Positions 10,018 to 33,362 of a DNA stretch of 64,000 nt are shown one piece after another; the stretch's first letter is position 1, and each line of letters begins with the position of its first letter. The position numbers were made by a program, and so were the translations under genes. The stretch covers positions 1 through 64,000 of the forward strand of contig CAMFGY010000028.1 in the NCBI GenBank assembly GCA_945952065.1, in the 5' to 3' direction. This DNA is from an uncultured Burkholderiales bacterium (GTDB taxonomy: Bacteria > Pseudomonadota > Gammaproteobacteria > Burkholderiales > Burkholderiaceae_C). The notes beneath the pieces are model-generated. The model ran no database searches. It saw only the letters and a program-made list of their open reading frames with translations, and had not been told where the DNA came from.

Positions 10018-10636
10018 AAGTACTTCTGATTGACACGCGGATCCTGATCAGTGGTTTAGTCGAATGCGTGCGCGTTGGCCCTCTTCGTACCTCGGCGCAT
10101 GATTCAACTTTCAACATCGCGCCTGATATTGGGCCAATTGAGCCCACATTGGGTCACCATAGCCCGCCCGTGGGCTAGCAGGACTTCGTGCTGGGTCGGA
10201 TTGGCCCTTGATGGGTCAGACCAACCCAATCACATCAATGAGCAAACCAGGCCGCTAACTCCCCATTCCGGCGAACCGTGTCAAGCACACACAGGGTGCA
10301 AAAACGGAAACGGAAAACAGTTCGTAGACTGAGGACAGCCACAACCCTCATGAACAATGGTCAAAACTCAAAACGTACAGACTGAAAGTGGACTGAGAGA
10401 ATTTTACGTGGCGCTATGCGAAGCTCACAGGACCGAGGCCGGCAATCATGGAAAGACGCGGTTCAACGTGGATTGGCCAGCCAAGCCTCCATGTCGGAAT
10501 TGATGCGCGCGACCAAGGCCTTGTCGTTCACCAAGCGCATCCCTGTTGAACTGACTTTCCGGGGATCGGTCGCTCTGGATGTGCGATGTTTTAAGCACCT
10601 GACTTCGCTGCAACAAGAGGGTCAAGTCGGCTTCCA
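10018..10636. other. intergenic stretch without recognised gene
   Basis: About 620 bases between chrA and the Fur-like remnant carry only short frames with no family motifs. The base composition is less GC-rich than the neighbouring genes. It lies at the border between the chromate genes and the decayed end of the nor locus, so it may contain a rearrangement scar. Confidence 0.45.
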
Positions 10637-10759
10637 TCAACGGGCACGGCATCCAGGCTTGGAACACAAGCCGTAAAGCGCCAGTGCGTGCTCGTGCAAT
10701 AGAAAGCCGCGTTCTTTGGCGACCTCCATTTGGCGCTGCTCAATGGCTTCGTCATAGAA
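10637..10759 (-). pseudogene. Fur-family regulator C-terminal remnant
   Basis: The last 40 residues of this frame read FYDEAIEQRQMEVAKERGF, then LLHEHALALYGLCSKPGC. This is the C-terminal end of Fur-family metalloregulators, where a helix with ExxxxRQ precedes the HxLxLYGxC strand. The DNA-binding domain is missing; upstream the frame runs directly into a TonB receptor plug. It is a fused leftover, not a working regulator. Confidence 0.65.
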
Positions 10760-11098
10760 CACCTCGACCTGCGCGATGTCCCAGAAACTGCCCGCGCCAT
10801 CGGGTGTGGCGCCATAGGTGCGTGCCACACCGTCCACGTAGTTGGACATCCGCGGGTTGGCACCGGTCACGGCGCCGCCACCCCCGGTGGCCACACCGTT
10901 GCCGTCGAGCCCGCGGATGGTCGGAAGGAACCCGTCCGACTGCTGGGCGGTGTTGGGCAGGCGCGCCACGGCTTCCAGCGCCGATTGCAGGCCGATGGTG
11001 TCGCGCGACGAAAGCACCGACACGCTCTGCGTTGCCTGCTGGCGGCTCTGGGACTGTTTGGTCCCGGTCACGACCACCGCCTGCAATTCGCTGACGGA
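10760..11098 (-). pseudogene. TonB-dependent receptor plug-domain remnant
   Basis: The frame encodes SELQAVVVTGTKQSQSRQQA and SALEAVARLPNTAQQSDGF, then PTIRGLDGNG and SNYVDGVARTYGATPDGAGSF, ending in WDIAQVEVF. This is the plug domain of an outer-membrane TonB-dependent receptor from the TonB-box region to the QVEVF strand. The signal peptide and the whole beta barrel are gone. Its right end abuts truncated norD and its left end continues in frame into a Fur C-terminus, so two deletion joints bracket about 340 bases. Confidence 0.75.
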
Positions 11099-22400: not shown

Positions 22401-22490
22401 CCGGAGGGCGCTGTTGGCGCCCTCCGGGAGGTGAGCGGGGCTCGAGTCCGCTCACCTCTTGAGGCCCTGTTTCGGGCCCTGTCTCAAGCT
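22401..22490 (-). other. three stem-loops between nosZ and nosR
   Basis: A perfect 11-bp stem pairs 22401-22411 with 22417-22427 (loop TGTTG). A second perfect 11-bp stem pairs 22428-22438 with 22448-22458. A weaker one pairs CTTGAG with CTCAAG around 22457-22487. None has a clear U-tract. They sit directly downstream of nosZ on its transcript, where they could terminate part of the transcripts or protect the nosZ mRNA 3' end. Confidence 0.7.
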
Positions 22491-24415
22491 TCCACAATCA
22501 TGCGGGTGCGCATCTCCAGGTGCAGGGCATGGCAGAAGTGAGTGCAATAGCACCAGAAGACGCCCGGCTTGTCGGCAATAAAGCTGACCGAGGCGGTTTC
22601 TAGTGGGTTGACGATGAAGTTGACGTTGTACTTCGGGATGGCGAAGCCGTGAGTCAAGTCTTCGATCTTGTCCAGATTGGTCAGAATCAGAGTGACTTCA
22701 TCCCCTTTCTTCAGCTTGAACTCACGCAGGCTGAAGGCGGGCGCTTGGGACGTGATCTTGACCGTGACTTTTTTGCCATTGCGGAACACGCCGGTTTCTT
22801 TGGGGTCTTTGATTGCCAAGGGGAAATCATCCAGCGCGTACACCTGCTTGGGTTTGAGCAAATCGCGCTTAAAGATGATGAAGTCATGGGGCTCGCCGCG
22901 CACCGGATGGTCGGCAAGCAGGACCATCTTTTCGCCCGAGATGTCAATCAACTGTTCGTTCTCCGGGTGCAGCGGGCCAACTGGCAGGAAACGGTCTTTG
23001 GAGAACTTGCAACCGACGGCCAAGATCTTGCCATCCGCAGCCCGAGTTTCGGATTGGCTGGCATTCAGGTGGCCCGGCTGGTACTGGACATCAAGGCGGT
23101 CCACGACGTACTTGGCGCTCTTGTCGCCCGCATGGAACTTGATGGCGGCCTCGACGTTCCACTTCACCACTTGACTGTCCAAGAACAGGGTGGTGTAGGC
23201 GTTGCCGCGTCCGTCGAAGGCGGTGTGCAAGGGGCCGAGGCCGAGTTCTACCTCAGCGACGATGGCTTTGTCAGGGGACTCCAGCTTGCCCTCAAAGTAC
23301 TCCAGCACCTTGGCCAGTTCAATCACAGTACCCGTGGGTGAGAGCTTTCCGGCGCAAATGAAATACTTGGCATCTGGGCTGGCGTTGACGCCGTGCGGAT
23401 TCTTGGGAACCGAAACGTAGGCGGTCAGCGCCGTCTTGGCATCCTTGTTGGACTCGCGCGTGCCGTCTACAACCGGCACCTTGGAGTCACCGTAGGTCTT
23501 GAACTTGCCGGCCTTGACGGCCTCTTCGATGCGGGCAATGTTGAAGAACAGGCAGGCGTCGCGCTCGGCGGACATCATGTCCTCGTAGTGCACGCCCATC
23601 TCGGTGTTGTACTGGTTGGTGGCGGCCAGCTTGCCGTCATAGGAGGTGGCGGTCAGGTCGCAGTTGCCGTCGATCAGCACTTGCCAGCGCACTTCCATGC
23701 TCTCGGCGTCCACGCAGGTGAACAGCGAGTGGTACTTCGTGCCGTCTTCGGTGCCCACCGTATTGGGCAGCGGGATCGAGAACTCGGCGCCGCAGAAGAC
23801 GCGGGTGGTGTAGTTGATCTTGGGATCGACCGGGTCGGCCTTGTCCGGGAAGATGCCGTGGAAGCCCTGCACATTGGGCAACTCGGTGATCTTGTCGCAG
23901 ACGAAGTAGTCCAGGCGGATGCGGGCGATGCGGCTGTTGATCTTGTCGTTGATCCAGGCGTAGCGGCCGTCGTAGTTGCCGTCTTTGTAGGACGCATGGG
24001 TGTGGTGGGTGTCGGCAACGGTGTACTTCAGGCTGCCATCTGCCTTGGTGCCCATGACCTTCTTGGATTCGTTGGTGATCCCCCAGCCGACCAGGGCATC
24101 CGGCACAAAGCAAGGGATGCGTGTGATCTCGCGGCCCGAGGGCAAGCCCAGCACCCGCATATCGCCAGTGTGTCCGCCGCTCCAAAGACCGTAGTAAGTG
24201 TCCAGTTCACCGGGTTTCAGATGGACGGCTCCACCGCCGCCACCGTGGGCGACTGCAGCACTGGAGGCTGCCGGCCCGGCCGCACCGGTGGCAGCCTTGT
24301 CTGTACAGGCAATGGCGCCGATGCTCAGCCCGGCGAGAGCCGCGCTGTTCATGAAGCGCCGGCGGGCCATCACGCCCAGTTCTTCGCCTTCATTCTTCTT
24401 GTCAACGTCTTTCAT
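22484..24415 (-). CDS. nosZ: nitrous oxide reductase NosZ (clade I)
   Basis: The 643-residue product has a twin-arginine signal (ARRRFMNSAALAGLSIGAIA). A propeller domain carries the CuZ histidines (DTHHTHASYKDGNYDGRY and others) and a C-terminal cupredoxin domain carries the CuA motif within GVFWCYCTHFCHALHLEM. It reduces N2O to N2 in the periplasm, and the Tat signal places it in clade I. The ATG at 24415 is preceded by AGAGGAAG. It is followed by nosR-nosD-nosF-nosY-nosL and preceded by a small DUF2946-like gene. Confidence 0.96.
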   Translation of the reverse strand: MKDVDKKNEGEELGVMARRRFMNSAALAGLSIGAIACTDKAATGAAGPAASSAAVAHGGGGGAVHLKPGELDTYYGLWSGGHTGDMRVLGLPSGREITRIPCFVPDALVGWGITNESKKVMGTKADGSLKYTVADTHHTHASYKDGNYDGRYAWINDKINSRIARIRLDYFVCDKITELPNVQGFHGIFPDKADPVDPKINYTTRVFCGAEFSIPLPNTVGTEDGTKYHSLFTCVDAESMEVRWQVLIDGNCDLTATSYDGKLAATNQYNTEMGVHYEDMMSAERDACLFFNIARIEEAVKAGKFKTYGDSKVPVVDGTRESNKDAKTALTAYVSVPKNPHGVNASPDAKYFICAGKLSPTGTVIELAKVLEYFEGKLESPDKAIVAEVELGLGPLHTAFDGRGNAYTTLFLDSQVVKWNVEAAIKFHAGDKSAKYVVDRLDVQYQPGHLNASQSETRAADGKILAVGCKFSKDRFLPVGPLHPENEQLIDISGEKMVLLADHPVRGEPHDFIIFKRDLLKPKQVYALDDFPLAIKDPKETGVFRNGKKVTVKITSQAPAFSLREFKLKKGDEVTLILTNLDKIEDLTHGFAIPKYNVNFIVNPLETASVSFIADKPGVFWCYCTHFCHALHLEMRTRMIVEA

Positions 24416-24442
24416 GGTCTTCCTCTTCAAGTGGGGATAGGT

Positions 24443-24808
24443 TCAGGTTGGGGGGCCGCGCGCAGGCGGTGGAAGTTCAGCAATGCGATGAGGGGCCGCG
24501 TCACGACTGGGCTGTCGCGCACGTTCGGCCCAAGGGGCGGGCGCAGCCAGTGCAGGCTCGCTAGAGGGGAGAGGGCCACTGAGCAGGCAGTTGGGGCACT
24601 CAAGGCTGTGGCCTGACTTGCTACCTGCTCCGTCGGAGTCCGTGCTTGCGTCGTTCGCCTTGACCAGTTTGGCTTGGCCATCGGCCGTGCACACCCACGC
24701 CAGTGACCCTGTATGAAGCAAAGGGGCCGCCGTGGCGAAGCCAAGTGCAAGCAGCATGCAGCCCAACACCCAGGCTCGCAAGCGGCGATGGGATGGATAG
24801 TTAGGCAT
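24443..24808 (-). CDS. DUF2946-like small secreted protein before nosZ
   Basis: The 121-residue product begins with a hydrophobic export or anchor segment (RLRAWVLGCMLLALGFATAAPLL). A short domain follows with AWVCTADGQAKLV, a CPNC pair in HSLECPNCLLSG, and a proline-rich tail ending in ARGPPT. This is the pattern of DUF2946 proteins, which often sit beside copper and heme uptake genes. The ATG at 24808 begins the segment PNYPSHRRLR. It lies directly upstream of nosZ on the same strand and 64 bases downstream of an FNR-type box, so it is likely the first gene of the nos operon. Metal binding is inferred only. Confidence 0.6.
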   Translation of the reverse strand: MPNYPSHRRLRAWVLGCMLLALGFATAAPLLHTGSLAWVCTADGQAKLVKANDASTDSDGAGSKSGHSLECPNCLLSGPLPSSEPALAAPAPWAERARQPSRDAAPHRIAELPPPARGPPT

Positions 24809-24871
24809 GAGCGAGGGAATGAGCGGGCAAGAAAAGTGACTGGACTCTAGGCTGGAGCGACCGTGCACTCC

Positions 24872-24885
24872 TTGAAGCAAATCAA
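24872..24885. promoter_or_regulatory. strong candidate FNR/DNR box between nos operon and cytochrome gene
   Basis: TTGAA-N4-ATCAA differs from the FNR/DNR consensus at one position. It lies 64 bases upstream of the leftward nos operon and about 110 bases upstream of the rightward cytochrome gene, so it could serve both divergent units. Confidence 0.7.
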
Positions 24886-25417: not shown

Positions 25418-25426
25418 GGTTTGGGA

Positions 25427-26476
25427 ATGCGTGACAGCCAGCCCAACATCAGTCGCCTTGCCTCGCGCCGCCAGATGCTGCGGATGCTGCCCGCCTTGAC
25501 TGTCTTAGCGGCTGTTCCTCCTTCGGCCCTGGCCTCGAATCCGACCCACCGAGCGTCGCGCCAGTTGCTGGGCACACGCGTGGACCTGATTGCGCATGGC
25601 CGCAGCGCTGCCATGCTTCAGGAGGCCGCCGACAGCGCTTTTGATGAAATGGCAAGGCTCAGTGCCATGATGAGCCGCTATGAGCCAGACAGCCCCATCA
25701 GCCAGCTCAATCAGAGGGCTGGGACCGGAACCCGCGTATCCATGCCACCGGAGGCCCTGGCCGTGCTGCAAGCTGGACAATCTCTGCACCGAGCGACCGG
25801 CGGTCTCTTCGATATGAGCATTGGCTCGATGAAGAGCTGGCGGTTTGAGCCTGGGGCGGAGCGGCGGATTCCTTCTTTCGAGCAGTTGCTTATTGAGCAG
25901 CGAGGCGTGAACGGCGCTGCGCTGGTGGTGAACGCGCCACAGCGCTGGGCCGAGCTTCCGCATACCGGCATGGCGCTGGATTTAGGCGGGGTCGCCAAGC
26001 TTCCAATTCTGGAAGCGGGGATGAAGCGACTACAGGCGTGGGGCATCCGAGATGCGTTGATCAACGGTGGTGGTGACGTGCTTTACCTGGGTTCCAACCA
26101 GGGAGCAGCTTGGCGTGTAGGTCTGCGCGATGCTCGGCGACCGGATCGGCTGCTGGGTGTCTTGCCCCTGCAAGGGCAAGGTGTTTTGGCGGCGAGCGGC
26201 GACTACGAGCGTTTTTTTCTCGCGTCCGGGCAGAAGCAGCATCACATACTTGACCCTCGCACCGGGCATCCAGCAAGAGCGGCATCCGGCGCGAGTTTTT
26301 GGGCCCGCGATGTTGAGACTTTGAATGGGCTGGGTACAGCTTTCATGATTGCGGGCCGGGAGTATGCCCGCGACTGGAGTGGCCGGCATCCGGATCTCCA
26401 GGCCTTGCTGTTTGAGTCTGACGGAAAGCTGTGGGCGACGTCGAGCTTTCGCACCGCTTTTCAAGGTTTGATTTGA
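25427..26476 (+). CDS. nosX: NosX/ApbE, FAD:protein FMN transferase
   Basis: The 349-residue product has a twin-arginine-like signal (SRRQMLRMLPALTVLAAVPPSALA) and the ApbE family landmarks RQLLGTRVDLIA, ALDLGGVAKLPILEAG, INGGGDVLYLG and HHILDPRTGHPA. ApbE enzymes attach FMN to a threonine, and here NosR is the likely acceptor. The ATG at 25427 follows a GAGG by about nine bases. It starts nine bases after the cytochrome gene, forming an operon with it. The GVAKLPILEAG segment deviates from the usual GxxKGYAxD at Lys-Gly, which may or may not matter. Confidence 0.88.
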   Translation: MRDSQPNISRLASRRQMLRMLPALTVLAAVPPSALASNPTHRASRQLLGTRVDLIAHGRSAAMLQEAADSAFDEMARLSAMMSRYEPDSPISQLNQRAGTGTRVSMPPEALAVLQAGQSLHRATGGLFDMSIGSMKSWRFEPGAERRIPSFEQLLIEQRGVNGAALVVNAPQRWAELPHTGMALDLGGVAKLPILEAGMKRLQAWGIRDALINGGGDVLYLGSNQGAAWRVGLRDARRPDRLLGVLPLQGQGVLAASGDYERFFLASGQKQHHILDPRTGHPARAASGASFWARDVETLNGLGTAFMIAGREYARDWSGRHPDLQALLFESDGKLWATSSFRTAFQGLI

Positions 26477-26528
26477 TGGGCTTTTCGAAATGCAGGCATG
26501 GTCAAGGACTGAATGGATGCCCAGAGTC

Positions 26529-26550
26529 ACGCCTTGAGATGACAAGGCGT
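26529..26550 (+). terminator. possible stem-loop terminator after nosX
   Basis: ACGCCTTG at 26529-26536 pairs perfectly with CAAGGCGT at 26543-26550 around a six-base loop. It lies 53 bases after the nosX stop. No U-tract follows, so termination is uncertain. Confidence 0.35.
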
Positions 26551-26675
26551 ATGGGGTGCCGCAGACTTGATGCAGCGCAAACTTACTTGCATCGCAGGAC
26601 ATTTGGTGCGAATGCCGGATCCGTGGCAAGGATCCGTGCAGTGATGGCGTTACTGCGCGGCTAGGCTTCTTCATC

Positions 26676-27050
26676 ATGTCGAGGACTCTGCGTCAAACAA
26701 CAGGATGGCTCGCTGCCCTGGCGATTCTATGGGCGGCCATGGTGCCGTTCCTGACGCATGCGTGGGCTGCTGGGAGCGGTAGCTCCTGGGTTGAGGTGTG
26801 CGGAACGCAAGGGTCAAAATGGGTCAAGGTTGAGGCGCAAGACGGCGACGATCAGCCCTCCTGGTTGCAGATGCTGGCGCACTGTGACCACTACTTGAAC
26901 CAGCTCCCATCGCTCAGTACGTGGCCGGTGAGCGCCTGGTCACTGGAGCCTCAAGGCTTGCGCGCTGGGTCCACTGGGTTTCGGTCGTGGCAGGCTGCGT
27001 CTTTTGCCTGGACCGTAGCGCAGCCCCGAGCTCCCCCACTCAAGGCCTGA
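26676..27050 (+). CDS. DUF2946-like protein before the copper receptor genes
   Basis: The 124-residue product starts with a hydrophobic export segment (WLAALAILWAAMVPFLTHAWA). SWVEVCGTQGSKWVKV and MLAHCDHYLNQLP follow, then a tail ending in QPRAPPLKA. The VCxxxGxK and HCxxC-like region plus the proline tail match DUF2946, although the second cysteine of the usual HCPYC is replaced (HCDHY). The neighbours are the nosX gene and the PEP-CTERM/copper-receptor genes. A role in copper handling is inferred from context. Confidence 0.55.
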   Translation: MSRTLRQTTGWLAALAILWAAMVPFLTHAWAAGSGSSWVEVCGTQGSKWVKVEAQDGDDQPSWLQMLAHCDHYLNQLPSLSTWPVSAWSLEPQGLRAGSTGFRSWQAASFAWTVAQPRAPPLKA

Positions 27051-27281
27051 TCCCCTTCGCGCGGTCAAAACTGGCCCGTGCGGCGAAGGCGCAATGCCCA
27101 GTTCGCGGCATTGATGCACTCAAACCAAGACTGTCAAAGCCTGTTGCATTTGCTTCCGGCTGGGCCGCCGCATGGGCTGTTCAGGGCGAGTGCATGGGCT
27201 GTCGAGCGCGCCATTTGGCGAAGTGCTCCGCTTTCAGTCACTCAAATTTCGATTCAACCACTCACTCCACAGGAGAACACC

Positions 27282-28016
27282 ATGAAAAAACTAGTTTTGA
27301 AGCAGATCGCTATTGCCAGCACCTTGTTGCTCGCTCTGGGTTCGGCTCAGGCGCATGAAGTCAACTACAACGTCGTCACGACATGGCTTGAACCCATGAC
27401 GCAGCCGAATAACAGCATCTTTGAAGGCAGCTTCACTTACAACGAGCACACCCATGCGGTCAGTGGCTTGCGCGGCCGCTTGAGTGAATCGATGACCTCG
27501 CTGGACGCCAACAACACGATGGCTTGGGTGGACTTGAGTCATCAACTGGCATCCTGGTATGACGCGTCGCTGGGAGGCACATTTGCCGCGGTGTTCAAGA
27601 ACGCCACGACCGCGACCTTTTGGGGGGGTGGGTGGACGCCGCAGGAAGGTATCAATGTCGGCAGCGTCTACGCAGGCTTCCCGGTCAAGGCGCAGAACGC
27701 TGGCAATGCCTATGCGTTGATCTTTGTACCCGACGCCCCAACGGCCGCTTTGACGCAAGCCCAGCTTGATCAACTGGCCTACGCCGACTGCGTGCCAACC
27801 GCGCCAGGTGGGATGAGCCAAGGAGGGGGCATGATGGGCTCCGTCTGCATGACTGGCCTCAGCGCTGCGGTGTACGGACAAGCGGGCACGATGAATGGCA
27901 CGCCGCTTTCGCAGACCATTGCCGCGGCAGTGCCGGAACCGAGCAGCTATGCCTTGCTGTTAGCAGGCTTGGGTTGCGTGGCGGGAGTGGCCCGTCGTCG
28001 CGGGCGTCAGGCTTGA
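27282..28016 (+). CDS. PEP-CTERM protein with Met/Cys domain beside the copper receptor
   Basis: The 244-residue product has a signal peptide (LVLKQIAIASTLLLALGSAQA) followed by HEVNYN. A domain of about 185 residues comes next and ends in LAYADC, a Gly/Met-rich stretch (GGMSQGGGMMG) and SVCMTG. A PEP-CTERM signal closes it (AVPEPSSYALLLAGLG with RRRGR). The ribosome site AGGAG at 27271-27275 fixes the ATG. The same domain forms the C-terminus of the large lipoprotein at 30357-33362. The paired cysteines around a Met-rich loop and the adjoining NosA/OprC-type receptor suggest copper binding; this is inference, and no known family was recognised. Confidence 0.7.
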   Translation: MKKLVLKQIAIASTLLLALGSAQAHEVNYNVVTTWLEPMTQPNNSIFEGSFTYNEHTHAVSGLRGRLSESMTSLDANNTMAWVDLSHQLASWYDASLGGTFAAVFKNATTATFWGGGWTPQEGINVGSVYAGFPVKAQNAGNAYALIFVPDAPTAALTQAQLDQLAYADCVPTAPGGMSQGGGMMGSVCMTGLSAAVYGQAGTMNGTPLSQTIAAAVPEPSSYALLLAGLGCVAGVARRRGRQA

Positions 28017-28020
28017 GTCA

Positions 28021-30366
28021 ATGGCTTCACTCGCTTTCTTGAAGTGGCGAGCGCTGCGAAGGGGGGCTGGCCGCCCTTTGCAGTTGACCGTACTGGTGTT
28101 CGGCCTCCTTGGGGTGCCGCATTCCTACGCACGGCCCGCAGGGGGCGCGGTAGAGGCGCCGATGCCGGCCACCTCAGCGGCCTCAGCGGCCTCTGCCCCG
28201 CCAATCCTGGTGAAGCCGTACCCTGCGTCGGTCGAGAAACCCCAGACGCTGCCGCGCTCAGTCACTCACGCCTCATCGGCACGCCATGACGAGCCTTTTC
28301 AGTCTCACCTCAGTCGTCATCAGTTGGCGCGAGCGCGTGCCAGCGGTGGAGACACAGCGCGTCTGTTGCAAGACATTCCGGGGGTCAGTCTGTATGGCGC
28401 GGGCGGAGTTTCAAGTCTTCCAGTGATTCAAGGTCTCGCTGATGATCGTCTGCGAACGCAGGTGGATGGCATGGACTTGGTGGCAGCTTGCCCCAATCAC
28501 ATGAATCCCGCCTTGTCCTATATAGACCCGAGCAACGTCGGCAGTGTCAAGGTTTATGCCGGTATCAGCCCGGTCAGTTCAGGAGGGGACAGCATTGGCG
28601 GATCGATCCAAATCGAAGCCGCGGCCCCCGAGTTTGCCGCAGAAGGCGCACCGGCGTTGCGCAAAGGCACGCTGTCCAGCTTTTACCGAAGCAGTGGCTT
28701 GTCGCGTGGCGCCAATGCCTCGGCCACCCTGGCTACGCATGCGTGGAACATGGCCTTCACCGACGCAAGATCCCAGCAGTCGAATTACCGGGCTGCGGCG
28801 GGTTTCAAACCAGTCGCTGCCGGTTCGGAAGCCGGACGTTTGATTCCCGCAGACGAGGTGGGTTCTTCGGCGTATCGAACCAGCAACCAAGAGTTGCGGC
28901 TGGCGTGGCGGCAAGATCAACACTTGGTGCAGTTGAGCTTTGCGCGGCAAAAGGTGGGCTTTGAAGGGTTCCCCAATCAGCGCATGGACATGACTGACAA
29001 CCGCAGCACCCAGTCCAATCTGCGCTACACCGGCCAGTTCGATTGGGGGCAGTTGAAAGCTCGGTTGTGGCAGCAAGAGGTTAAGCACGCCATGGATATG
29101 GGGCCTGATCGGTACTTCTACGGCTTTGGGATGCCAATGCTGACGGAGGCTACGACCCGTGGCATGCAATTGCAGACTGAAGTCGATGTGAACGACCTGC
29201 ACATGCTGCGCATGGGAGTCGAACGTCAGACCTATGTCCTCTACGACTGGTGGCCCCCTGTGGGAGGCTCCATGGGCCCGAATGCGTTCTGGAACGTCGA
29301 TAACGGCCAGCGCATCCGAGATGGGGCCTATGCGGAATGGCAGGCGGACTGGAGTCCGCAATGGTCGATGTTGAGCGGTGCGAGAGTCGATCGAATCGTC
29401 ACGGATGCCGACAAAGTGCAAGGCTATGACAACGGCTTGGGTGCGATTTGGGGGAAGGATGCCGCTGACTTCAACGCCAGTTCGCGCCATCGAAAAGATG
29501 AGCTGCTCGACCTTGCGATGACGCTGCGCTATCAGCCTCACCTCTCCGCAGGCTATGAGCTGGGTGTGGCTCGCAAGGCGCATGCCCCCAATCTTTACCA
29601 GCGTTATGCATGGTCTACACAGCCTATGGCGGCATTGATGAACAACTTCATGGGGGACGGCAACGGCTATATCGGCAACCTCTCCTTGCGTCCTGAAGTG
29701 GCTCGAAAGCTGGCGCTCACAGGCGCCTGGCAGGACGGTGAGGACGGCACCTGGCAATTGAAAGTCACGCTTCATGCCTCGCACGTTGACGACTTCATCG
29801 ACGCGAAACGGTGTGATTTCGGGCAGTGCAGTTCAGCCAACGTCTCCGCGGTCGAGAGCTTTGTGCTGTTGCAGTACACCAACGTACCCGCCCGGCTTTA
29901 CGGCATGGACCTGTCCGGCCGCAAGCGTTTGCTGATGAGCGAAACAGCGGGAGAGTTGAACGGTTGGTTTGTCTTGAGTCATGTGCGTGGGCGCAATCTG
30001 GCCAGTGGTGATGACCTCTACAACATCATGCCGGACAACATTCGACTGGCCTTGGAGCACAAGGTCGGTGGGTTCACGGCTTCGCTTGAACTCTTGGCCG
30101 TGGCCGCAAAACGGCGGGTCTCAAAGGTACGCAATGAAATAACGACCCCTGGCTACGGCTTGGCTCACTTGCGGGCGAGTTACGAATGGCGCCACGCGCG
30201 GCTCGACCTGGGTCTGGAAAACGTGTTCAACCGTCTCTACTTTCCGCCACTTGGCGGCGCGTATCTGGGGCAAGGCCGGTCCATGACATCGGCCGGCATT
30301 CCTTGGGGCACGGCTGTGCCGGGTCCCGGTCGATCGATCAATATTTCACTCAGCTTATGGTTGTGA
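28021..30366 (+). CDS. TonB-dependent copper receptor, NosA/OprC-type
   Basis: The 781-residue product has an export signal and an N-terminal extension. A plug follows (GGDTARLLQDIPGVSLYGAGG, LPVIQGLADDRLRTQVDGMD) with the diagnostic segment ACPNHMNPALSYIDP, then a beta barrel ending in RSINISLSLWL. The CxxHM segment is the feature I associate with NosA/OprC copper receptors, in which Cys, His and Met ligands bind copper at the outer face. Copper import would supply NosZ. The ATG at 28021 lies four bases after the PEP-CTERM gene, and the stop overlaps the next gene, so the three genes form one operon. Confidence 0.85.
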   Translation: MASLAFLKWRALRRGAGRPLQLTVLVFGLLGVPHSYARPAGGAVEAPMPATSAASAASAPPILVKPYPASVEKPQTLPRSVTHASSARHDEPFQSHLSRHQLARARASGGDTARLLQDIPGVSLYGAGGVSSLPVIQGLADDRLRTQVDGMDLVAACPNHMNPALSYIDPSNVGSVKVYAGISPVSSGGDSIGGSIQIEAAAPEFAAEGAPALRKGTLSSFYRSSGLSRGANASATLATHAWNMAFTDARSQQSNYRAAAGFKPVAAGSEAGRLIPADEVGSSAYRTSNQELRLAWRQDQHLVQLSFARQKVGFEGFPNQRMDMTDNRSTQSNLRYTGQFDWGQLKARLWQQEVKHAMDMGPDRYFYGFGMPMLTEATTRGMQLQTEVDVNDLHMLRMGVERQTYVLYDWWPPVGGSMGPNAFWNVDNGQRIRDGAYAEWQADWSPQWSMLSGARVDRIVTDADKVQGYDNGLGAIWGKDAADFNASSRHRKDELLDLAMTLRYQPHLSAGYELGVARKAHAPNLYQRYAWSTQPMAALMNNFMGDGNGYIGNLSLRPEVARKLALTGAWQDGEDGTWQLKVTLHASHVDDFIDAKRCDFGQCSSANVSAVESFVLLQYTNVPARLYGMDLSGRKRLLMSETAGELNGWFVLSHVRGRNLASGDDLYNIMPDNIRLALEHKVGGFTASLELLAVAAKRRVSKVRNEITTPGYGLAHLRASYEWRHARLDLGLENVFNRLYFPPLGGAYLGQGRSMTSAGIPWGTAVPGPGRSINISLSLWL

Positions 30367-33362
30367 TCACCGCTCAAGCGTTGCGGCGCTATGGTTTGTA
30401 CCTTTCACTTGTTTCGGCCGGGCTCGTGCAAACGGCCTGTGGCGGCGCCGCCGGTTCGGAGGGGGCGCGTGTCCAAGACGAAGCGCAACGGATCGTTTTT
30501 GGCGAAGCCCCGGCGCTAGAGGTGACCGCGAGGGCTTCCGTTCGAGCCACAGCAAGTTCCGCCTTGCCTCCGGTCTACAGCAGCCTGACGCCGGAGGTGT
30601 GCCAGGTCGAGCCCGACAGCGGCCAGGTCACAGGTCTGAGCCAGGGCGAATGCACGATTGCTGCCGATCAGCGCGGGAATGACGCTTACGCGCCGGCAGC
30701 TCAAGCGACTCAGCGCGTGGTCGTGGCGGGCCGGCGTCAAAGCCTCACTGTGGACCTGCCCAAGGCTGTTGAGGTGAACGAGACGGTTCGGATTCAAGCC
30801 CTAGCGAGTTCAGGGCTGCGCCCGCGTTACACAAGCCTTTCACCTGAGTTTTGCAGCGTGGAGGCCGACTCGGGCGAGATCAAGGGAATGGCTGTAGGTA
30901 CATGTCGGGTGCTCGCGCACCAAGAGGGTGATGTGCTGTGGGCGGCTGCGCCGCAGGTCTCGGGGGAATTGAGCGTGAGTCCCAGGGCTCAGGTGCTGGA
31001 GCTTCAGCGTTTGGAAGGACAGCAAGTCGGCGGCAGGGTCAGCGTAAGTGCACGGGCCAGCTCTGAACTGCCTGTGAGCATTCGCAGTTTGACCCCTACC
31101 GTGTGCAGCCTTTCCCCCGGCAGTTCTGTGGCGATCGCTTTGGCCGTCGGCACCTGCACGATCGAGCTCTCTCAGCCAGGCGATTTTCGGTGGGCGCCTG
31201 CCGCAACCTTGACACAGTCCTTCACCATTGGAAAAGGCGAGCAACGCATCAGTTTTGCTGGCGTTGCACCGAGCTTGGTGGCGGGCGGGAGCGCCCTGCT
31301 TCACGCCCAAGCCAGCTCGGCATTGCCCGTGAGCTTTAGTTCGCTCTCGCCGGGCGTCTGCAGCATCAGCGCCGCTGGGCAGGTGTCTGCTTTGCAATCA
31401 GGCCAATGCTTGATTGCCGCCCAGCAAGCGGGAAACATCCACTGGCTCGCCGCTGCACAGGCCACATTGAACTTCCCCATTCAAGGAAAAGGGCAGAGCA
31501 TCGCATTCGCGCCCGTTGCTTCTCTTGTCGCCGGTGAGTCCGCTGGGCTGAAGGCAAACGCAAGCTCCGGTCTGGCGGTGACGTACAGCAGTTTGTCGAG
31601 CTCAGTCTGCAGGGTGGATGGTGTCAGCGGGTGGGTGACAGGACTTATACCCGGTGTTTGCGAGATTGCAGCCGATCAACGCGGCAACGGGGAGTGGGGG
31701 GCGGCGCAACAGGTCAAGCTGTCACTTCAGATCGCGCCAAAGCCCAACCAGCAAGCCAAGCAGACACTGCAATTCGCATCGGCTCCGACCCTGTCGCTTG
31801 GCGCCACAGCAGTTCTTGGTGCGAGCGCCAGTTCGGGCTTGGCGGTGGTGTTCAGCAGCCTCAGTCCCGGGATCTGCAGCGTGCAGTCGACGTCAGGCGT
31901 GGTGAGCGCTCTAGCGACAGGAAGCTGTGTCATCGCTGCCAATCAATCGGGCAATAGCAAATGGTTGCCAGCGTCTCAAGTCACGCAGGAGCTGTGGGTG
32001 CAGGGAAAGGCGCAAAGCGTCGTGTTCTCGGCGGCGCCCTCGCTGTACGTTGGCAGCACGGGCTTTGTTCGCGCTGCTGCGAGTTCCGGCTTGTCGGTGA
32101 TGTACGGCAGCTTGACGGGCGCAGTTTGTAGCGTCGATGCCAACAGCGGGCAAGTGCAAGGCCTGACCCCCGGAAGTTGCAGTGTTTCCGCTACCCAGAG
32201 CGGCAATGCCACCTGGGCAGCCGCAACTGCCGCGACTCAGGTGCTGCTGGTCGGGCCGAATCCGCGGCAGACCCTGAGCTTTAGCCCCGCGCCTGCACTG
32301 ACGTTGGGCGGTTCGGCGACCGTGCGAGCTACGGCCAGTTCCGGACTTGCTGTGAGTTACAGCAGCCTCAGTCCTGGTGTTTGCAACGTTCAGGCCGCAT
32401 CGGGATTCGTGACCAGCAGCGCGCTGGGGGATTGTGTGATCGCGGCCAATCAGGCTGGCAATGGAAATATCAATCCTGCGCCGCAGGTGCAGCTGACCTT
32501 GCCGGTCAACCTCCCTGCAGGCGTGTCGGTACCCGGCATTCCCCAAAGCGTGTCGGCCACCCTGGGCGGCAATATCGGGACCGTGCTCGTTTCCATCGGT
32601 GCGATCGAAAGCGGAGGCATGCCCATTACCCAATACTCAGTTACCTCAAGTCCGCCCGGAATTCAAGTCAAGGCGACCGCAGCACCCATCACGGTGACCT
32701 GCCCGACCAGCTGTGCGGGCTACGCTTTTTCCGTGTCTGCCAACAATGCGGCCGGACAGGGGCGCATCTCGGCCGCGGTGCCTGTGCTGACAACCTTTGA
32801 TGTCACCACGACGTTTTACGAGCCAGATACACAGCCCAGGAACTCGATCTTTGTAGGCTCGTTTACCTTGAACTCCACGACCGGTGCGATCTCGAACTTG
32901 GCCGGGAGGCTGACCGAGTCGATGACGGGCAATGCACTGGGCTCTGCGCCCTTCTTTGACATGACGCAGGTGCCCTTGTCCTATCAACTTCAGTCCTGGC
33001 GCGATACCGGTTTGGGGGGAAGCTTCGCAGCCAGCTTTGCCAAGAACAGTACGAGCACCTTTTCCACTATGGCCGGCGGCGACGGATGGTCGCCGAGGGC
33101 TGGCGTGGATGTGGGGGGCGTTTACGCCGGCTTCCCATCGGCCTATGCCAGCTCAGTCAAGAATTCTTCAATCCTGATCTTTGTTCCAGACAACCCTTTC
33201 GCTGAACTCACGGCCGCGCAGCTCGCCAAACTGGCTTACGCCGACTGCGCCCCTGGCGGCATGATGGGAGCGGTCTGTATGACCGGCACAAACGTCAGTG
33301 GCTATGGTTCGACGGGCACGATGAGCGGCTACCCCCTCTCGCAACGCCTCGTGAAGCGATGA
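30357..33362 (+). CDS. large Ig-repeat lipoprotein with the same Met/Cys domain
   Basis: The 1001-residue product has a hydrophobic signal with a loose lipobox (GLVQTAC). Residues 44-720 hold eight Ig-like repeats of about 84 residues, each with a SSGLxVxYSSLSPxVC core, a second cysteine about 20 residues later in xGxCxIAA, and a GN..W motif. A fibronectin-III-like segment follows (about 720-813). The C-terminal domain from about 814 (TTTFYEPDTQPRNSIFVGSF to LAYADCAPGGMMGAVCMTG) matches the PEP-CTERM protein at 27282 but lacks the sorting signal. The ATG at 30357 overlaps the receptor gene by 10 bases. It looks like a long surface stalk presenting the shared domain. Confidence 0.75.
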   Translation: MVVITAQALRRYGLYLSLVSAGLVQTACGGAAGSEGARVQDEAQRIVFGEAPALEVTARASVRATASSALPPVYSSLTPEVCQVEPDSGQVTGLSQGECTIAADQRGNDAYAPAAQATQRVVVAGRRQSLTVDLPKAVEVNETVRIQALASSGLRPRYTSLSPEFCSVEADSGEIKGMAVGTCRVLAHQEGDVLWAAAPQVSGELSVSPRAQVLELQRLEGQQVGGRVSVSARASSELPVSIRSLTPTVCSLSPGSSVAIALAVGTCTIELSQPGDFRWAPAATLTQSFTIGKGEQRISFAGVAPSLVAGGSALLHAQASSALPVSFSSLSPGVCSISAAGQVSALQSGQCLIAAQQAGNIHWLAAAQATLNFPIQGKGQSIAFAPVASLVAGESAGLKANASSGLAVTYSSLSSSVCRVDGVSGWVTGLIPGVCEIAADQRGNGEWGAAQQVKLSLQIAPKPNQQAKQTLQFASAPTLSLGATAVLGASASSGLAVVFSSLSPGICSVQSTSGVVSALATGSCVIAANQSGNSKWLPASQVTQELWVQGKAQSVVFSAAPSLYVGSTGFVRAAASSGLSVMYGSLTGAVCSVDANSGQVQGLTPGSCSVSATQSGNATWAAATAATQVLLVGPNPRQTLSFSPAPALTLGGSATVRATASSGLAVSYSSLSPGVCNVQAASGFVTSSALGDCVIAANQAGNGNINPAPQVQLTLPVNLPAGVSVPGIPQSVSATLGGNIGTVLVSIGAIESGGMPITQYSVTSSPPGIQVKATAAPITVTCPTSCAGYAFSVSANNAAGQGRISAAVPVLTTFDVTTTFYEPDTQPRNSIFVGSFTLNSTTGAISNLAGRLTESMTGNALGSAPFFDMTQVPLSYQLQSWRDTGLGGSFAASFAKNSTSTFSTMAGGDGWSPRAGVDVGGVYAGFPSAYASSVKNSSILIFVPDNPFAELTAAQLAKLAYADCAPGGMMGAVCMTGTNVSGYGSTGTMSGYPLSQRLVKR
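30486..32505 (+). repeat. eight tandem Ig-like coding repeats of about 252 bp
   Basis: Eight consecutive units of roughly 84 codons start with Q-[SR]-[IVL]-x-F-like strands. Each contains two conserved cysteines, probably a disulfide pair. The copies are diverged, with the last five most alike. Confidence 0.85.

Follow-up and report, generated by a model that had tools for sequence, protein, structure and literature searches.

Genes of the locus and the shared domain

The analysed window is a 64,000-nucleotide stretch of an uncultured Burkholderiales bacterium (contig CAMFGY010000028.1), in which three plus-strand genes, joined by a 4-base gap and a 10-base overlap, encode a PEP-CTERM protein (27282..28016), an OprC-like TonB-dependent receptor (28021..30366) and a lipoprotein (30357..33362). 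These coordinates and spacings agreed with the first-pass annotation of the window, which was made from the sequence alone. The PEP-CTERM protein comprised a signal peptide, a domain (27363-27926) and an exosortase sorting tail (PF07589, E 9e-8). The receptor matched PF00593 and PF07715. The lipoprotein contained eight Big-like repeats (PF22359, E 9.5e-17) and an fn3-like segment that matched weakly, under the Pfam cut-off; at its C-terminus it carried a second copy of the domain, which was delimited by sequence and profile comparison (32793..33353). The upstream gene order was also as first annotated: nosX, encoding an ApbE protein (25421-26476, E 3.5e-59), was followed by a DUF2946 (CruR/CutF-family) upstream open reading frame (ORF) on the plus strand (26676..27050; PF11162, E 3.2e-10). 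The nosZ gene occupied 22484-24430 on the minus strand.

The PEP-CTERM protein and the C-terminus of the lipoprotein were homologous, as had been proposed. BLASTP aligned them with 102 of 195 residues identical (52%; 184 bits, E 3e-57), far beyond chance. One domain is thus carried on two anchors, a PEP-CTERM tail on one protein and a Big-like-repeat lipoprotein on the other. The domain had been left unassigned, and profile searches gave no convincing Pfam, NCBIfam or PDB match: none of 14 domain members matched any NCBIfam model at E 0.5, the same members had only three weak single matches in Pfam (best E 0.063), and a PDB profile search with the domain returned nothing at E 10 or below. Among the literature matches listed, no open-licence paper described the domain, in line with the earlier remark that no described family was known to have this arrangement. 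Relatives of the domain were looked for on viral contigs and none were found.

Among the alignment columns in which 25 or more of 27 copies agreed were Met856, Cys964, Met970, Cys974, Met975 and Met989 (lipoprotein numbering); Met969 was Met in 23 copies and Leu in four. The domain core was C-x4-MM-x3-CM. Columns at this level of identity numbered 25, and six of them were Cys or Met, versus eight of 168 well-filled columns (p 1.4e-4). In the window lipoprotein, the most conserved sulphur cluster of the domain, C964-APGGMMGAV-C974-M975, was encoded at 33246..33281 (plus strand). The PEP-CTERM protein had a C-(Met-rich insert)-GMMGxxCM segment, recognized from its translation and conservation, at 27789..27851 (plus strand). 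This pattern suits Cu(I) binding without proving it.

In total, the domain was found in 19 distinct genomes from two phyla, with 28 copies including that of Ideonella dechloratans. It was present in 8 of 299 genomes of the family sample, 4 of 369 of the class sample and 1 of 398 of the phylum sample, the last being the window genome itself; the order sample gave matches in 6 of 300 genomes, one of which (G275) was dropped. The window genome is part of every sample count, and some genomes may occur in more than one sample. The G275 match (locus L019, E 7e-4) was rejected on a reading frame that looked flagellin-like by eye, without a family search. A scan of genome contigs gave five domain loci, including those of a Desulfuromonadales metagenome-assembled genome (L010) and Lautropia dentalis (L013); loci L011 and L012 matched contigs G369:C72 and G498:C167 and were counted once. 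Among 72,556 plasmid records only that of Ideonella dechloratans had the domain, in a protein annotated as hypothetical (WP_151124326.1). Whole-genome searches of L010 and L013 found no second domain copy, and the search in Ideonella covered the plasmid only.

Receptor pairing, anchor forms and the upstream slot

A receptor homologue, identified with a profile built from relatives of the window receptor, lay next to a domain gene on the same strand in each of the 19 genomes. By ORF calls, the nearest domain copy lay no more than 120 bases from the receptor gene or overlapped it. In the family sample the receptor was found (E 1e-60 or better) in 33 of 299 genomes, and all eight domain genomes were among these 33 (hypergeometric p 1e-8); the neighbourhoods of the 25 receptor-only genomes contained no domain. 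In a tree rooted with four domain-less receptors, the 19 domain-associated receptors formed one clade (99/99). A larger receptor tree split the domain-associated receptors from 23 domain-less ones; a further domain-less receptor (L106) was an outlier and sat at the midpoint root. Forty-one plasmid records had a receptor relative at E 1e-50, and the domain accompanied it only in Ideonella, whose receptor was 54% identical; identity was 38-41% for the other 19 records among the matches listed. On an Azospirillum plasmid the receptor was preceded by a DUF2946 gene, and no domain gene was annotated beside it. The domain is an accessory of one receptor clade.

The best PDB match of the receptor profile was OprC (E 3e-29), and the copper-ligand segment noted in the first-pass annotation was present: CPNHM (28489..28503, plus strand; C157 and M161) aligned over ACPNRM of OprC. 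The principal copper-site residues of OprC are given as C143, M147, H323 and M325 (PMC8610252). Receptor residues C157, M161, H356 and M358 were kept in 18 of 18 domain-associated and 23 of 23 domain-less receptors, counts that leave out the two ORFs of the split receptor in L105, a ligand-less paralogue in L013 and the outlier L106. The candidate HxM ligand pair (HAM, 29086..29094, plus strand; H356 and M358) was invariant; this stretch lay outside the receptor-OprC alignment, so its correspondence to H323 and M325 of OprC is one of motif only. The L013 paralogue (L013:751-3324) is a second receptor of Lautropia dentalis in which all four OprC-type ligands were lost together. At residue 360 (window 29098-29100), two residues past the HxM pair, 16 of 18 domain-associated receptors had Met and all 23 domain-less receptors had Phe; the difference may be an adaptation to the partner or a mere clade marker.

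The 27 copies comprised 14 with a PEP-CTERM-like tail and 13 of lipoprotein type, and the Ideonella copy was a fourteenth lipoprotein. Non-canonical tails accounted for five of the 14 and occurred in G369, G498 and G642. The domain tree, in which many inner branches were weak, needed four changes of form, three of them forced by well-supported branches; the anchor was therefore swapped repeatedly. The PEP-CTERM form was upstream of the receptor in all ten genomes that had it and the lipoprotein form downstream in all 14. Elsewhere in the window genome two exosortase genes were matched, so that the sorting tail and the exosortase expected for a PEP-CTERM substrate are both present. The window lipobox, LVQTAC, has Q at position -3, and those of L009 and L010, also read by eye, were canonical (SLTAC and LTGC); lipidation of the window copy is therefore likely but not certain. 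By motif count its stalk (30357-32500) had eight Big-like repeats against one to three in the relatives counted, and is thus expanded. Surface display would follow from the sorting tail and two exosortases in one form and from the lipobox and stalk in the other. Another PEP-CTERM protein was conserved just upstream of a domain copy in two genomes (L049:12455-13387 and the first half of L009:8918-10696); in L009 it was in frame with the domain, within one ORF.

In some relatives, the position upstream of the receptor was taken by other genes. In 7 of 18 genomes the genes for MbnP (TIGR04052) and MbnH (TIGR04039), both above the curated cut-offs, closely preceded those of the receptor and the domain, and the pair was also upstream in Ideonella dechloratans, where the match to the MbnH profile is annotated as MbnM (8 of 19 in total, upstream of the receptor in 8 of 8). 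In G779 a Crp-like gene stood between the pair and the receptor and domain genes. In the family sample the pair occurred in two of 25 receptor-only genomes, both times unlinked; linked pairs were found in five of eight domain genomes versus none of 25 (p 2e-4). Altogether, the pair was present in eight of nine genomes without a detected PEP-CTERM form versus none of the ten with one (p 1e-4). On the receptor tree the MbnP-MbnH and PEP-CTERM states each required four changes, three of them forced by well-supported branches, and the slot was repeatedly swapped between them. Since none of the 19 genomes had both, the PEP-CTERM copy probably does the job of MbnP; the simplest reading gives the PEP-CTERM copy and MbnP-MbnH a common role upstream of the receptor. 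A sub-cut-off MbnH-like match was found elsewhere in G029.

Copper genes and the proposed function

The first-pass annotation had placed the domain in a copper-linked system, and this was borne out by the OprC-type ligands and by DUF2946, MbnP-MbnH and PCuAC neighbours. A DUF2946 gene was upstream in 10 of 19 domain loci and PCuAC was near four of 19. In the receptor-only genomes, searched with our own profiles, DUF2946 was nearby in eight of 25 and PCuAC in seven of 25. Copper thus goes with the wider receptor family, since domain-less receptors too have the same ligands and some have DUF2946 or PCuAC nearby.

One member of DUF2946 is CruR, an upstream ORF that responds to copper (PMC9426467). 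The window protein had the PF11162 match, a C-terminal RAPP arrest motif and the upstream position, and was followed by a 231-base gap; the gaps of CruR operons are likewise reported to be long (PMC9426467). No sigma-70-like promoter was found at 26300-27300. A second DUF2946 protein (24443-24880, minus strand; PF11162, E 5.6e-7), which contains CPNC and has ARGPP at its C-terminus, ended just upstream of nosZ and suggests a CruR-like copper control of nosZ itself. A DUF2946-like ORF preceded nosZ in three of 20 sampled loci; the 17 without one included the second full-length nosZ of the window genome (G000 contig C2:299187-300917). In the Desulfuromonadales genome two small Cys-rich ORFs flanked the receptor-domain pair (L010:5404-5988 and 10588-11073). 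They had a hydrophobic N-terminus, proline-rich ends and no Pfam match, and may represent a different family of CruR-like upstream ORFs.

We consider it fairly probable that the shared domain, previously undescribed, is exported, captures copper and serves one clade of OprC-like TonB-dependent copper receptors as a dedicated partner. In the lipoprotein form, the Ig-like stalk would hold the domain at the outer membrane; in the PEP-CTERM form, export and exosortase processing would leave it loosely attached or released. Copper, probably as Cu(I), would be caught by the sulphur cluster Met856, Cys964-x4-MM-x3-CM975 and Met989 (lipoprotein numbering) and handed to the CxxxM/HxM site of the receptor for TonB-driven import. 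In the window organism, copper shortage would raise expression by way of the upstream ORF of DUF2946 type. The slot before the receptor is occupied in relatives by MbnP, which NCBIfam lists as a copper-binding family, together with MbnH as its partner enzyme, or else by a PEP-CTERM copy, which probably stands in for MbnP. More tentatively, and with somewhat less than even confidence, the domain may found a new family of protein chalkophores, sulphur-rich, secreted or Ig-stalked, that feeds an OprC-like receptor and has repeatedly been exchanged with MbnP/MbnH in an operon slot. The slot exchange is new; the general scheme of a surface partner and a TonB receptor is already known.

Several observations weigh against the copper-capture reading. 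No DUF2946 was found in nine of 19 loci, no MbnP-MbnH in 11 and no PCuAC in 15, some of them on short contigs; the DUF2946 model also overlooked a copy that is annotated in the L107 record, so loci without DUF2946 are possibly misses or short contigs. The window DUF2946 protein has HCDHY in place of the CXXC copper motif, which was kept in 11 of the 12 DUF2946 proteins listed. The domain-less receptors share the ligands, some with DUF2946 and PCuAC nearby, and the domain is therefore dispensable in the receptor family. The exclusivity of the slot rests on 19 non-independent genomes; in two of the PEP-CTERM genomes, G369 (78% complete) and G498 (64% complete), an MbnP-MbnH pair could have been missed, and Ideonella is represented by its plasmid. 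The best NCBIfam score of the receptor was to a hemin-receptor subfamily (140 bits, cut-off 317), and the TonB-copper model TIGR01778 scored 104 bits against a cut-off of 472; because the latter score is below the cut-off, the receptor is called OprC-like and is not filed as OprC. Finally, since the protein is exported, its two conserved Cys, ten residues from each other, could be joined in a disulphide.

In an unlikely alternative, the domain binds no copper of its own, docks on the receptor and presents some other ligand, such as a copper chelate, a peptide chalkophore or a cuproprotein, and the Cys pair is a loop-closing disulphide. CrtA, another TonB-dependent transporter of DUF2946-headed operons, imports chelated copper (PMC12914433), and the Cys pair was lost together in two divergent paralogues, those of G369 and G498. 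In both of these, however, the first Cys is replaced by Met while the second is missing, which is odd for a disulphide and fits a ligand, although the two are sister genomes and may record one event. GMMG and CM are conserved along with the Cys, and four copies have Met-containing inserts between the two Cys (the PEP-CTERM copies of the window and L009 and both copies of L049; three PEP-CTERM and one lipoprotein).

PEP-CTERM and Ig-repeat architectures are typical of surface and matrix proteins, and the two proteins might be ordinary adhesins or biofilm proteins that sit in copper operons by chance. Such an explanation is improbable given that in all 19 genomes, which span two phyla, the domain adjoined receptors of a single clade, and did so across at least three swaps of anchor.

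The first-pass annotation had proposed that the domain supplies copper for NosZ, and the window locus does lie beside nosX and nosZ, with the second DUF2946 ORF preceding nosZ. As a general function, a NosZ-specific copper supply for N2O reductase is nevertheless very improbable. Full-length nosZ was found in six of the 18 domain genomes other than Ideonella (G000, G142, G218, G642, G737 and Lautropia), with G1308 and G1309 repeating G369 and G498; short matches in G1306, G781 and G1307, to the last fifth or less of the NosZ profile, were not counted. Among the five genomes with a readable distance, nosZ adjoined the domain only in the window, and in G142, G218, G737 and Lautropia it was hundreds of kilobases or more away; in G642 the two were on different contigs. 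In the family, nosZ was present in 2 of 8 domain genomes versus 42 of 220 sampled genomes as these counts stand (p 0.65), and a variant of 40 of 212, which assumes that the eight are inside the 220, gave the same p. OprC/NosA receptors are also reported from non-denitrifiers (PMC8610252). Presence, distance and enrichment thus leave a NosZ-dedicated function unsupported. NosZ is not needed for the copper link, given the DUF2946 and MbnP-MbnH genes that lie upstream in the numbers stated above, and the domain is probably a copper-catching partner of the receptor and not a device specific to N2O reductase.

A heme receptor with a hemophore-like partner, to which the hemin-receptor score and a C-terminal barrel resembling PhuR would point, can scarcely be credited when both NCBIfam scores are far below their cut-offs, OprC is the best PDB relative, the four OprC-type ligands are invariant and the neighbours are copper genes.

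Comparison with known systems

Copper scavenging at the Gram-negative surface is poorly known. The window receptor resembles OprC/NosA in its aligned CxxxM segment and its best PDB match, and has a conserved HxM as a candidate counterpart by motif. It differs in scoring far below the TIGR01778 cut-off and in having a partner, no dedicated surface partner being mentioned for OprC in the available part of PMC8610252. The CrtA-type copper transporter also differs: the window receptor has an invariant Cys157 and Met ligands, whereas the CrtA logo, as given in the accessible portion of PMC12914433, is without conserved Cys or Met. As in CruR operons, a DUF2946 gene heads the operon. OprC-type TonB-dependent transporters, PCuAC and MbnPH-like genes have been described in CruR operons; no protein like the shared domain is named in the sections of PMC9426467 at hand, and the window copy differs in its missing CXXC.

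MbnH converts a Trp of MbnP to kynurenine, and a kynurenine site has been reported in CorA and MopE. Like MbnP/MbnH (MopE/CorA), the domain is an exported copper-associated partner encoded beside a TonB receptor and in the same upstream slot, and in methanobactin operons the TonB-dependent transporter is often a neighbour of MbnP/MbnH (PMC3621798). The domain is unlike MbnP in sequence, and the PEP-CTERM form comes without MbnH; a relationship to MbnP was considered and rejected, as TIGR04052 matched none of the 14 members and the hhalign probability was 0.2%. The exchange with MbnP/MbnH offers a genetic handle on the role of MbnP outside methanobactin operons, since it can be asked whether the domain replaces MbnP.

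The zinc exoprotein ZepA is likewise exported as a PEP-CTERM protein and aids metal uptake, and some zepA neighbourhoods contain genes for TonB-dependent transporters (PMC10957091). It is set apart by its description: the context is zinc and Zur, the ligands are His, and neither a lipoprotein form nor pairing with a single OprC-like receptor is described in the excerpt of that source.

The TbpB-TbpA and HpuA-HpuB pairs of lipoprotein and TonB-dependent transporter have a surface partner that captures cargo for its TonB receptor (PMC7857515), as is proposed for the window locus. The domain differs in matching no known family, in its proposed metal-ion cargo and in being made also as a PEP-CTERM protein, and the likeness here is one of gene pairing alone. 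The proposal would give a testable function to proteins now annotated as hypothetical, such as WP_151124326.1 of Ideonella dechloratans. If the domain is indeed dedicated to an OprC-like receptor as its surface partner, it would be a counterpart of TbpB or HpuA for copper.

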